From: Verrucomicrobia bacterium LP2A
Lineage (GTDB): Bacteria; Verrucomicrobiota; Verrucomicrobiia; Methylacidiphilales; Methylacidiphilaceae
Reading direction: 5' to 3'
Assembly: GCA_000526255.1 (NCBI GenBank)
Contig: JAFS01000002.1
Coordinates: 558,001-622,000, forward strand
Length of the DNA: 64,000 nt
Below the pieces are notes generated by a model. It was not told the origin of the DNA and did not search any database. It worked only from the letters and a program-made list of their open reading frames with translations. Both the position numbers and the translations under genes were made by a program. Positions 25,646-29,913 of the stretch are shown here, piece after piece. How positions within the stretch are numbered: the first letter of the stretch is position 1; every line of letters starts with the position of its first letter.

Positions 25646-26974
25646 ATGAACGCCACCATTGCGGCCCTCGCCACCCCGGCGGCACCAGCTGCCCTGGCCG
25701 TGATCCGCGTGAGCGGCCCCCGGTCGCGAGAGATCACCGACCTTTTGCTGCGCAAGCCGGTCCGGTGGCATCCCCAGAAAGCGTGGCATCGGGAACTCTG
25801 GGACGGCGCGGAACGATTGGACGACGTCGTCCTCCTCTATTGGCAACAGCCCCGCTCGTACACCGGGGAAGAGATGGTCGAGGTCTCCTGCCATGGGAAT
25901 CCCCTCCTGGTCGACCGGATCCTGGCCACCTATTTCACCCACGGCGCCCGCGCAGCCCTTCCCGGAGAGTTCACTCAGCGCGCCTTTCTTCACGGCAAGC
26001 TCGACCTGACCCAGGCGGAGGCGATCGCGGATCTGATTCACGCCGGTAGCCTGCGCAGCCTGGCGGTCGCCCAAGAGATGAAGGAGGGAAGGCTGGGCCG
26101 GATCCTGGTGGAGGCGCGCACGACACTCCTGGAGCTCGTCGCGCACGCGGAGGCCTTCCTCGATTTTCCAGAAGAGGATATCGATCCTGAGGTCGGGGAG
26201 GAGATGCTCCTTCGCATCGACCGGTTGAGGAACGAGCTGCTCGGCTTGGCGGGCAGCGCGCCGACGGGCCGCCTGCTTCGGGAGGGGATCGCCGTCGTTC
26301 TGGCGGGTCGGCCGAACGTCGGAAAGTCGAGCCTTTTCAACGCGATCCTGCGGCAGAGCCGAGCGATCGTCTCTCCCCATCCCGGAACGACTCGGGATAC
26401 GATCGAATCCCTCTGCCAGATCCATGGCTTTCCCGTCCGCCTCATCGACACGGCAGGTCATCGGACCGCCGAACACCCGGTCGAAGCGGAAGGAGTTCGC
26501 CGGGCAGAGGAGGCCCTGCGCTCGGCGGATATCGTCGTCCACGTGTCGAGCGCACCGGAGCCGCCGGAAGCCGATCCAGTCTCCCGCGCTCCCCTCCTTC
26601 CCCATCAACGGCTCCTGCTCGTGGGAAACAAGTGCGACCTGGGCGTCCACCCGGAACGCCGGTCGCAGATCTGCGTCTCGACGCTCACCCGCCAAGGCTT
26701 GCCCGAGCTCGATCATCTCCTCCATCAAGAAATCGCCGCCCTCGCTCCCGATGCGTCCGCCGGGAGTGCCGTCAATGCCCGGCAGGAAGCCGCCTTCCGG
26801 CGCGCTGCGGCGGCATTGGAGCGGGCCTCCGCCGCCTTCCGAATGGGCCTGGCCTGCGAGCTCTGGTGCCTGGAGCTGCGCACGGCCCTGCAAGCCGTGG
26901 GAGAGGTGATGGGGGCGGTCACCAGCGAAGAAATTCTCGACGAGGTCTTTCGGCGCTTTTGCATTGGAAAGTGA
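25646..26974 (+). CDS. mnmE: tRNA modification GTPase MnmE
   Basis: 442 residues. With MnmG it adds the aminomethyl-type group to U34 of tRNAs. N-terminal folate-binding domain (IAALATPAAPAALAVIRVSG, GEFTQRAFLHGKLDLTQAEA at 107-126), G domain inserted in the helical domain with G1 GRPNVGKSSLFN (221-232), DTAG, and GNKCDLG, and the C-terminal FCIGK whose Cys is conserved. Slightly short of the usual 450-460. mnmG is not adjacent. Start ATG 25646 is 124 bases from divergent priA. Confidence 0.96.
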   Translation: MNATIAALATPAAPAALAVIRVSGPRSREITDLLLRKPVRWHPQKAWHRELWDGAERLDDVVLLYWQQPRSYTGEEMVEVSCHGNPLLVDRILATYFTHGARAALPGEFTQRAFLHGKLDLTQAEAIADLIHAGSLRSLAVAQEMKEGRLGRILVEARTTLLELVAHAEAFLDFPEEDIDPEVGEEMLLRIDRLRNELLGLAGSAPTGRLLREGIAVVLAGRPNVGKSSLFNAILRQSRAIVSPHPGTTRDTIESLCQIHGFPVRLIDTAGHRTAEHPVEAEGVRRAEEALRSADIVVHVSSAPEPPEADPVSRAPLLPHQRLLLVGNKCDLGVHPERRSQICVSTLTRQGLPELDHLLHQEIAALAPDASAGSAVNARQEAAFRRAAAALERASAAFRMGLACELWCLELRTALQAVGEVMGAVTSEEILDEVFRRFCIGK

Positions 26975-27133: not shown

Positions 27134-28228
27134 GTGGTTTCAGAGTCAGAAATCGGTGCGGCGGTCGCCGAGAAAAAGGCGAAGCGAGAATCCTTCGGCG
27201 GCTGGGAATATGTCCGCCTTCTCCACGATTGGCAGGGATGGCCCCGCGGCACGATCCTGGCGGAGGGCCGGGTCATTCCCGGCTATCCGAAGATCGGACG
27301 GGTACAGACCCTGGTGGGCATCCCCGCCCTCTTTCACGCCCCGTTCTGGGCCGAGGAAAAGGTCGACGGCTACAATGTGCGCCTCTTTCGGGCAGGGGAT
27401 TCCCTCTACGCCGCCACCCGTGGGGGCTTGATCTGTCCCTTCACGACCGACCGGCTGGCCGATCTGATCGATCCCGCTCTGTTTTCCGCGCATCCGGAGC
27501 TGATTCTCTGCGGAGAAGTGACCGGGCCTGAAACGCCCTACATCGAAGGCACATCGCCCTTGGTGGCCGAAGGGGTCGGGTTCTTCCTCTTTGATCTGAT
27601 GCGGCAAGGAGTGGAGGGCTTTCTCTCGATCGAGGAGAAGAGCTCGCTCGCCCGCTCGTTCAGGCTTCCCACGGTGCCCGCTTATGGCTGGATCGATCCG
27701 AAGGATCTCGGCGCTTTCCGGGAGATCGTGCGCCAGCTCGACGAGCAGGGCCGGGAAGGAGTCGTCCTCAAGGAGAACTCACCCCGCAGCTTCCGCGTCA
27801 AATATGTGACGGGTAGTGCCGAGCTCGCCGATATTGCCTCGATGACCCAGCGTTACCTCGACGTCCCTCCGGAGTATTTCACCGAGCGGGTCTTGCGGCT
27901 GGCTCTCTTTCTCGAGGATATGGAGGCGACGGATCGGGAAGGGTGGAGCCGCCGGTTGGGAGAGGCCTTCCTCACCGCTCTTCGGGAGCGAATCGGCTCA
28001 GCCCGACGAGGGCAATGCGTCGGCTCCTTCCGCTGCCGCTTCCACTCCCGAGAAAACGCCCTCCGGCTGCTCGACTCCCTAGCGCAGATCCGTGGCCACG
28101 AAGGGGAAACCCGCCTGGTCGACCTCCGGGCGGAAGAGGGATTTTGGGTTCTCCGATTCGAAAAGCTCTACCGTTCAACCTCGGGTTTTCTCCGCAACGC
28201 CCTCGGCGGTTCTCTTCGTTTCGATTAG
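27134..28228 (+). CDS. Archaeal-type ATP-dependent RNA ligase (Rnl3/Pab1020 family)
   Basis: 364 residues, matching the ~370-residue archaeal family. Nucleotidyltransferase motifs are all visible: motif I EEKVDGYNVRL with AMP-accepting Lys76, motif III LILCGEVTG (about 123-131), motif IV EGVVLKEN (208-215) and motif V FRVKYV (220-225), followed by a ~135-residue helical C-terminal domain that such enzymes use to dimerise. The family joins RNA 5'-phosphate and 3'-OH ends, including circularisation; the cellular role is unknown. Start GTG 27134 is tentative. The 3' end overlaps by 54 bases the convergent gene for its usual partner protein. Common in archaea, patchy in bacteria. Confidence 0.85.
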   Translation: MVSESEIGAAVAEKKAKRESFGGWEYVRLLHDWQGWPRGTILAEGRVIPGYPKIGRVQTLVGIPALFHAPFWAEEKVDGYNVRLFRAGDSLYAATRGGLICPFTTDRLADLIDPALFSAHPELILCGEVTGPETPYIEGTSPLVAEGVGFFLFDLMRQGVEGFLSIEEKSSLARSFRLPTVPAYGWIDPKDLGAFREIVRQLDEQGREGVVLKENSPRSFRVKYVTGSAELADIASMTQRYLDVPPEYFTERVLRLALFLEDMEATDREGWSRRLGEAFLTALRERIGSARRGQCVGSFRCRFHSRENALRLLDSLAQIRGHEGETRLVDLRAEEGFWVLRFEKLYRSTSGFLRNALGGSLRFD

Positions 28229-28783
28229 GTGGCAGAGCAGCTCCCGAAAATGGCGCGCATCGACGACTGTCACCCCCATCCGATCCGCCCACTTGCGCAT
28301 CCCCTCGTCGGCTGCGACCAGGCTGCCGTCGAGCTCGAAGGAGAGCAGCACCACGTCGACATCTCCTCGGCTGTCGAGAATTCCCCTCCGCAGCGATTCC
28401 CGATAGCGCTCCCGGAGCTGGTGCAGCAGCTGCCCGATCTCGGCCGCCTCTCCTGCCCGCTTGGCATGTTCCTCGGCGATCCGCAGCCCATGGTCGATCC
28501 GCTTCCGGACCTCGTCGATAAAGTCGTAGAGAAAGTCCCCGGGGATCTGCAGGTCCGATCTCCGCGGGGAGCGGATCCGAATCACCGACTCGAAGTACCC
28601 GATCAGCGAGTCGAGATCGCGCATCTTCCGCAGCTCTTCGTAGACGGAGAGCGGCATATAAAACTCCGCAGGGACCTTTCGCGCCAGATCGAGAAAGCTT
28701 CCCACCGCCGCCTCGTCTTCTCCGAACTGAGAGGCGACGTCCGGATTGGTGAAGATGCTGGTATCCAGGACGAACCGGTGCAT
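28175..28783 (-). CDS. RNA ligase partner protein, PIN domain (MJ0950-like)
   Basis: 202 residues from ATG 28783, which has AAGGAG six bases upstream; ATG 28798 is possible but lies within that ribosome site's reach. PIN-fold acidic residues: Asp7 in HRFVLDTSIFTNPD, Glu49/Glu50 in SVYEELRKM, Asp141/Asp143 in SRGDVDVVLLSFEL and Asp159 in LVAADEGMRKWADRMG. This matches the family known as RNA ligase partner, which accompanies Rnl3 ligases. A cut-and-reseal pair (RNase plus ligase) is a natural inference. The tail-to-tail overlap with the ligase means the two transcripts are complementary at their 3' ends. Confidence 0.82.
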   Translation of the reverse strand: MHRFVLDTSIFTNPDVASQFGEDEAAVGSFLDLARKVPAEFYMPLSVYEELRKMRDLDSLIGYFESVIRIRSPRRSDLQIPGDFLYDFIDEVRKRIDHGLRIAEEHAKRAGEAAEIGQLLHQLRERYRESLRRGILDSRGDVDVVLLSFELDGSLVAADEGMRKWADRMGVTVVDARHFRELLCHLIETKRTAEGVAEKTRG

Positions 28784-28860
28784 GATCTCCTTCCGCATCC
28801 TAGACTAGGATGCCTGGCACCGGCAATCCAGCCGTTTGTTGCTCCTTCCGCTTCTGAGGC

Positions 28861-29913
28861 TTGCGGATTGTCAACGCTTCCCCACTTCCCGAAACTACCC
28901 TTGTGCTCTACCGCTTGATCCTTCGCCGTTTGCTCTTTTTTCTTCCTCCGGAAAGCGCGCATCATCTCGCCCTCTCTCTCTGCGCAAAGGGCTGGACGGA
29001 ACGCCTGCTGCGGCGGCTCTTCCCGCCTCTCCCCTCGGGTCTCGAACGGACAGTATGGGGACTCCGTTTTCCGAGCCCGCTCGGGCTCGCCGCCGGATTC
29101 GACAAGAACGGGATCGCCCTCGGCGCGTGGGAGGCGCTGGGGTTCGGATTCTGCGAGATCGGCACGGTGACTCCCGCCCCGCAAGGTCCGAACCCCCCTC
29201 CCCGCCTCCGCCGCCTCCCCCGGTCGGAGGCCCTCTGGAACCGACTGGGATTCCCAAGCGAGGGGGCGGAGCGGGTCGCTCGCCGGCTGGCACGCCGGCG
29301 CACCGAAGGACGATGGCCTCGATTTCCGGTGGGGATCAACGTGGGGAAATCGAGGCAGACGGAGCTCGACCGGGCTGCTGAGGATTACGCGCGCGCCTTC
29401 TCCCTCCTCCGCGCCTACGGCGACTTTTTCGTGCTCAACCTGAGTTCGCCGAACACCCCCGGGCTCCGCTCCCTTCAGCAGGAAACCCACTTGCGATCGG
29501 TGCTTGCCGCGGTCGCCGCGGCCAACCCCCCTCCCGCGAAGCCCGTCTTGGTGAAGATTGCTCCCGACCTCGAGGAAAAAGCACTCGGGCGAATCCTGGA
29601 GGTGCTTCTTTCCAGCCGCTGCGACGGCCTGGTCGCCACGAACACGCTGCCGACCCCGGATCGAGGCGGCGTCATGGGAGGGCTGAGCGGCAAGCCTCTG
29701 ACCCAGCGAAGCACCGAGGTCATCCGCTTCCTGGTTCGGGAGAGCGGCGGCCGACTGCCTATTATCGCCGCTGGCGGAATCTTCGATGGCGCGGATGCCC
29801 GGGAAAAGCTCGATGCGGGCGCAAGCCTCCTCGAGGCATACACCGGCTTTGTCTTCCGCGGAGCAGGATTTGCCCGCGATATCGAGCGCGATCTCTTAGG
29901 AACCGTTCCGTAA
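28861..29913 (+). CDS. pyrD: Dihydroorotate dehydrogenase, class 2 (quinone-linked)
   Basis: 350 residues counting from TTG 28861; GTG 28903, just before [16 protein letters not shown], is an equally likely start. Oxidises dihydroorotate to orotate using quinone at the inner membrane. The N-terminal amphipathic helices typical of class 2 are present, then [13 protein letters not shown] (FMN site), [19 protein letters not shown], the catalytic [14 protein letters not shown] with Ser as base, and [15 protein letters not shown] near the C-terminus. The 3' end overlaps the convergent thioredoxin/DUF255 gene by 18 bases. Confidence 0.94.

Follow-up and report, generated by a model that had tools for sequence, protein, structure and literature searches.

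In Verrucomicrobia bacterium LP2A, an acidophilic methane oxidiser, the gene for HARP, a minimal protein-only RNase P, lies tail to tail with the gene for an Rnl3-type RNA ligase, and the recurrence of this layout in bacteria, together with the survival of the pair through gene moves within the Methylacidiphilaceae, suggests that the two genes work as one unit. We analysed them in a 64,000-nt stretch of contig JAFS01000002.1 (assembly GCA_000526255.1, positions 558,001 to 622,000), hereafter the window, to which all coordinates refer. We give about even chances to the reading that HARP and the ligase act together as one cut-and-seal RNA unit, which most likely repairs or circularises a structured RNA other than bulk tRNA.

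The pairing itself is already known, and the Methylacidiphilaceae pair adds a member to it. Linkage of HARP and Rnl3 was published in 2025, with an orientation described as ‘typically bidirectional’ and co-occurrence in 665 of 751 HARP genomes (Seshadri and Gopalan, mBio, PMC12153264); our literature search found this study alone to treat the pairing. The pair described here shares with the published one both protein families, close linkage on opposite strands and coexistence with the ribonucleoprotein (RNP) form of RNase P, which was reported outside Aquificaceae. In contrast to the broad term ‘bidirectional’, our analysis resolves the bacterial layout as tail to tail, measures the overlap and finds the pair intact in three genomic neighbourhoods; the main text of PMC12153264 mentions neither the tail-to-tail layout, nor the overlap, nor relocation with the pair intact, though its supplementary table may hold them.

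The ligase gene (27134..28228, plus strand) starts with GTG and encodes an ATP-dependent enzyme of 364 aa. Its product matches the full length of the TIGR01209 model with 301.8 bits (cut-off 136.9), and the Pfam RNA_ligase (nucleotidyltransferase) and Lig_C domains both exceed their cut-offs. K76, V77, D78, G79, R207, E208, G209 and K213 are invariant in 10 of 10 rows of our ligase alignment (A1), with the motif I lysine (K76, in KVDG) and motif IV (REGVV.K) preserved, in agreement with the Rnl3-type assignment made in the initial annotation. Among solved structures, 3qwu scores highest (305 bits), followed by 8uce (196 bits) and 2vug (PAB1020; 192 bits). Both 3qwu, deposited as ‘DNA ligase’ (42% identity), and 2vug (33% identity) belong to the same family and carry the same motifs, whereas the window ligase ends in FD, as do most other bacterial members, and lacks the archaeal tail. 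Rnl3-type ligases are reported to join 5′-phosphate and 3′-hydroxyl ends (PMC5599603), and loss of the Thermococcus ligase is described as leaving fewer C/D-box circles while aberrant rRNA fragments remain (PMC9014305); the same end joining and circularisation are predicted for the window ligase from its sequence. As RtcB was found in 10 of the 13 Methylacidiphilaceae genomes, Rnl3 is not the sole RNA ligase in the family.

On the minus strand, the partner occupies 28175..28783 (202 aa). Its ORF can begin at 28798 (28175..28798, 207 aa), but the ATG at 28783 is the start common to relatives (MHRFVLDTS). The product scores 202 bits with PF08745 (cut-off 27), 208 bits with TIGR03875, ‘RNA ligase partner protein’ (cut-off 95.3), and 279.5 bits with NF003344 (cut-off 241), and a PDB search returned seven sequences at E <= 0.001, every one named ‘RNA-free ribonuclease P’, the best at about 1e-65 to 4e-65. 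These family profiles and the match to solved RNA-free ribonuclease P identify the partner as HARP. Membership in the ligase-partner family, as initially annotated, is thereby upheld, and so is the general reading of a nuclease beside a ligase, which nevertheless missed that the nuclease is a protein-only RNase P. The complete PIN acidic set noted earlier is also present: the catalytic residues D12, D142, D146 and D164 do not vary across the 16 rows of the HARP alignment (A2), nor do R129 and R133, which correspond to R125 and R129 in the spike helix of Aquifex aeolicus HARP (Aq880). Aq880 is 55% identical to the window protein in the same alignment and shares the catalytic aspartates and key arginines, and changing a catalytic aspartate or Arg125/Arg129 is reported to abolish or cripple its activity (PMC8266387, where the last catalytic aspartate is numbered 161, against 160 in the chain sequence used here). 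RNA cutting is a predicted activity of the Methylacidiphilaceae HARP.

The named records closest to the window belong to Methylacidimicrobium and other Methylacidiphilaceae. HARP was detected in 13 of 98 sampled relatives, comprising all 13 Methylacidiphilaceae and none of the 85 other members of the order and class, and the ligase, found in 13 of 26 genomes tried, occurs in the same 13. Because both genes are present in every family genome and both are under purifying selection, the pair is not a product of chance, and the joint conservation on which the first interpretation depended is complete within the family. The layout is tail to tail in all 13 genomes, at loci whose G+C content spans 0.34 to 0.65, with overlaps of 54 nt in genus g1 (seven genomes), 39 nt in g2 (five) and 42 nt in g3 (one). 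Across the window and five relatives, we distinguished three genomic neighbourhoods, and the pair is unbroken in each. That of g1 reads PriA-MnmE-pair-PyrD-DUF255 gene; its window members mnmE (25646..26974, plus strand) and pyrD, for a quinone-dependent dihydroorotate dehydrogenase (28861..29913, plus strand), were named by profile matches and serve as context only. By tblastn, the g1 flanking genes are absent beside the pair in g2 and g3. In g2, the pair follows what we take to be dnaA, dnaN and nadA and precedes genes presumably encoding a UDP-sugar dehydrogenase and PurA, and in g3 its neighbours are presumably mnmA and clpX. In a Verrucomicrobia MAG whose ligase falls outside the family group (L087), HARP is also present but not linked to the ligase.

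Beyond the family, we searched ligase flanks of up to 5 kb for HARP at 80 loci, the best of 174 that were confirmed, a sample in which distant bacteria and most archaea are under-represented. Within it, all 51 clear adjacent pairs are convergent and none is divergent or tandem; one HARP fragment of 63 residues, lying at the end of its contig (L103, 44 bits), was left out, which lowered the count from 52. The loci are related, and 51 of 51 therefore does not equal 51 independent events. By label, the pairs belong to Pseudomonadota (20), Aquificota (18), Verrucomicrobiota (4), Myxococcota (3) and Planctomycetota (3), with a single pair under each of three other labels. The genes overlap by 4-54 nt in 35 pairs, are separated by 1-25 nt in 14 and lie 187 and 1070 nt apart in the remaining two. 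Among the best 80 of 174 loci, the convergent layout is thus the bacterial rule for the pair, and not, as the initial annotation had it, a peculiarity of the window genome. The survey of orientation proposed at that stage gave a different picture in archaea, where two linked pairs, one from a Halocatena plasmid and one from a Natrinema plasmid, have a head-to-head layout with 98 and 121 bp between the genes. Adjacency in more than one orientation, albeit in two archaeal cases, speaks for a functional link and against the idea that overlap of the 3′ ends is its essence. On three other haloarchaeal plasmids that carry HARP, no ligase lies closer to it than about 4 kb; all three of these HARP genes (L132, L133 and L134) lie near HalOD1-domain genes.

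Linkage is not universal in the same sample. HARP was not nearby in 28 of the 80 loci, some of which have short upstream flanks; at four of the 28 the contig ends at the ligase, and at the other 24 it runs on past the ligase. The 27 genomes with unlinked loci encode HARP elsewhere in 23 cases, and it was not found in four, all draft MAGs (L045, L049, L065 and L108), contrary to the printed claim that all ligase-positive genomes have HARP. On the ligase tree, from which L103, L104, L107, L108, L110, L130 and L131 were omitted, the distribution of linked and unlinked states needs nine changes, six of them forced by strong branches. We rejected the idea that linkage tracks the absence of RNP RNase P, as convergent pairs occur both with rnpB and without it (the latter in 19 of 32 Aquificota-type genomes) among these loci. 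Most of the neighbouring genes common across loci proved to be antisense shadow ORFs. Regulators of the NtrC (sigma-54) type are found divergent from HARP and next to it in Aquificota (L047, L048, L052, L058, L061, L068, L073 and L097) and near the ligase in Thioalkalivibrio (L063, L069 and L096); they are of differing kinds, and their proximity is perhaps due to chance.

In the window, the two genes share 54 nt at 28175..28228, as initially annotated from the ORF ends, a region that belongs to both strands and in which 17 HARP codons plus stop lie opposite 17 ligase codons plus stop, with the codons in register. Six g1 sequences show how it evolves: outside the overlap, HARP diverges by 0.061, 0.026 and 0.319 at the first, second and third codon positions, and inside it by 0.306, 0.039 and 0.020. 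Since the first codon position of HARP is free there, it is the ligase frame that is conserved, and the HARP tail merely follows it; selection on this tail as the keeper of the overlap was accordingly rejected, the tail not being constrained as protein. Ligase third positions diverge by 0.306 in the overlap and 0.398 elsewhere, and 17 of 313 windows are equally low.

These patterns bear on the explanation that the overlapping 3′ ends are themselves the point of the arrangement, the two mRNAs pairing and regulating each other. The overlap in 13 of 13 family pairs (39-54 nt) and in 35 of the 51 clear bacterial pairs speaks for it, as does the junction, where no terminator-like site was found, so that transcripts may enter the opposite gene; terminators around the pair are at chance level, and no promoter was found there. 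However, 16 of the 51 pairs are gapped, the two haloarchaeal pairs have a head-to-head layout, conservation in the overlap is confined to the ligase frame and the third positions of that frame vary only a little less there than in the rest of the gene. Moreover, a second convergent overlap lies 1.7 kb away, where pyrD (plus strand) and a thioredoxin-domain (DUF255) gene (minus strand) share 18 nt (29896-29913). Strand complementarity is automatic and thus uninformative on antisense pairing, nothing observed at the overlap favours a special antisense function, and we regard mutual regulation as improbable.

The genomic background of RNA processing bears on the choice of substrate. In the family, rnpB is present in 13 of 13 genomes (12 above the cut-off, and one as a fragment where a contig ends) and rnpA in 12, the exception being a 230-contig draft. 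Among 77 genomes with such ligases, in which about 15 rnpB candidates were scored per genome, rnpB was detected in 2 of 3 Thermococcus genomes, in none of the 31 labelled Aquificota, in 0 of 1 labelled Acidobacteria and in 37 of the 42 remaining bacteria; the HARP and ligase of the Acidobacteria-labelled genome (L060) group with those of Aquificota, and it is probably mislabelled. HARP is thus the only RNase P found in Aquificota, whereas the window organism has both rnpA and rnpB. Its RNase P RNA (438 nt) was considered as unusual and dropped, the scores and lengths being like those of other Verrucomicrobiota; in the 64-kb window, Rfam detected four tRNAs only. As for the C/D-box machinery, Nop5 was found in 0 of 13 family genomes, and the best fibrillarin match in the window genome reached 21 bits, below the cut-off of 27; two of the 13 family genomes attained the cut-off with partial matches that we judged to be other methyltransferases. 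The published archaeal circularisation model is consequently not directly transferable, and a substrate other than C/D-box RNA is to be sought.

It is conceivable, though rather unlikely, that the two genes serve parallel needs in hot, acid or salty habitats, HARP as a spare RNase P under stress, should the RNP form fail, and the ligase in independent RNA repair; they would then stay together only through their usefulness in such places and by moving as a cassette. HARP seems to suffice as the RNase P of Aquificota, and in the Methylacidiphilaceae HARP is under purifying selection alongside the RNP form. CCA does not directly follow the match in 25 of 30 examined tRNA genes (L152-L181; 45 found) and does in five, as judged by eye (7 of 30 in a looser automated count), which suits the published preference of HARP (PMC12153264). 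On the other hand, independent utility fails to predict the survival of the pair in three neighbourhoods of one family, and the Methylacidiphilum infernorum HARP is reported, as relayed in PMC12153264, not to cleave pre-tRNA. The spike helix also differs: Lys119 and Arg123 of Aq880 are both Gln in the window HARP (residues 123 and 127 of the 207-residue ORF). A basic residue (Lys or Arg) occupies position 119 in 19 of 19 Aquificota-type, 5 of 20 Pseudomonadota and 0 of 11 Methylacidiphilaceae rows, the last all having Gln, and position 123 in 19 of 19, 9 of 20 and 5 of 11, respectively. Both positions are therefore basic where HARP is the sole RNase P found and mostly non-basic where the RNP form is retained, a lead rather than a test, because Aquificota form one clade.

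A toxin-antitoxin-like or defence pair, in which HARP, when the cell is attacked or stressed, would cut RNA while the ligase would repair or restrain the damage, is among the possibilities that the published study brings up (PMC12153264), and the PIN domain, the pairing and the patchy spread are in keeping with it. A toxin-antitoxin module would be a small co-directional operon with growth arrest and rescue; HARP and the ligase are convergent. We think this reading very unlikely, given that the pair occurs in every sampled family member, like a core function, and that a pattern scan of viral contigs for relatives of either protein gave matches of which none was confirmed; the Thermococcus kodakarensis ligase knockout is, as cited in PMC12153264, reported to grow normally.

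We return to the cut-and-seal unit. RNase P-type cleavage yields 5′-phosphate and 3′-hydroxyl ends, the very ends that Rnl3 joins, so that no end-healing step would be needed. HARP, a PIN metallo-nuclease, would cut a structured, tRNA-like RNA, and the ligase, with ATP, would join the resulting ends, usually within one molecule, as published for archaeal members. Bulk pre-tRNA 5′ maturation in the window organism would most likely fall to the RNP enzyme; with this enzyme present and the C/D-box machinery missing, another structured RNA is the likeliest substrate, which the unit would repair or circularise, perhaps under stress. We infer the joint action on one RNA, and the choice of that RNA; in favour of the proposal, we count the gene identities, the conserved active sites, the co-occurrence, the linkage through relocation, the presence of rnpB and rnpA and the absence of Nop5. 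Against it, we count that co-retention could reflect parallel needs, that the two genes are no longer neighbours in several lineages (24 loci among the best 80 of 174), that HARP stands without a nearby ligase on three haloarchaeal plasmids and that the M. infernorum enzyme is reported inactive on pre-tRNA. The published proposals are C/D-box RNA maturation and circularisation, removal of 5′-adenylated leaders, or independent stress roles (PMC12153264), and the first of these is inapplicable as such to the window organism, which lacks Nop5. A bolder version, which we consider unlikely, is that bacterial HARP-Rnl3 is a movable tail-to-tail cassette for a separate cut-and-reseal pathway producing circular or repaired structured RNAs, neither pre-tRNA nor C/D-box, and that Aquificaceae later promoted HARP to sole RNase P.

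The HARP-ligase pair bears on the question of why a protein-only RNase P persists in cells whose RNA-based enzyme works. The Methylacidiphilaceae, whose sampled members combine the RNP form, HARP and the ligase with no C/D-box machinery, are a clean test case, all the more so as other workers have already purified HARP from M. infernorum.
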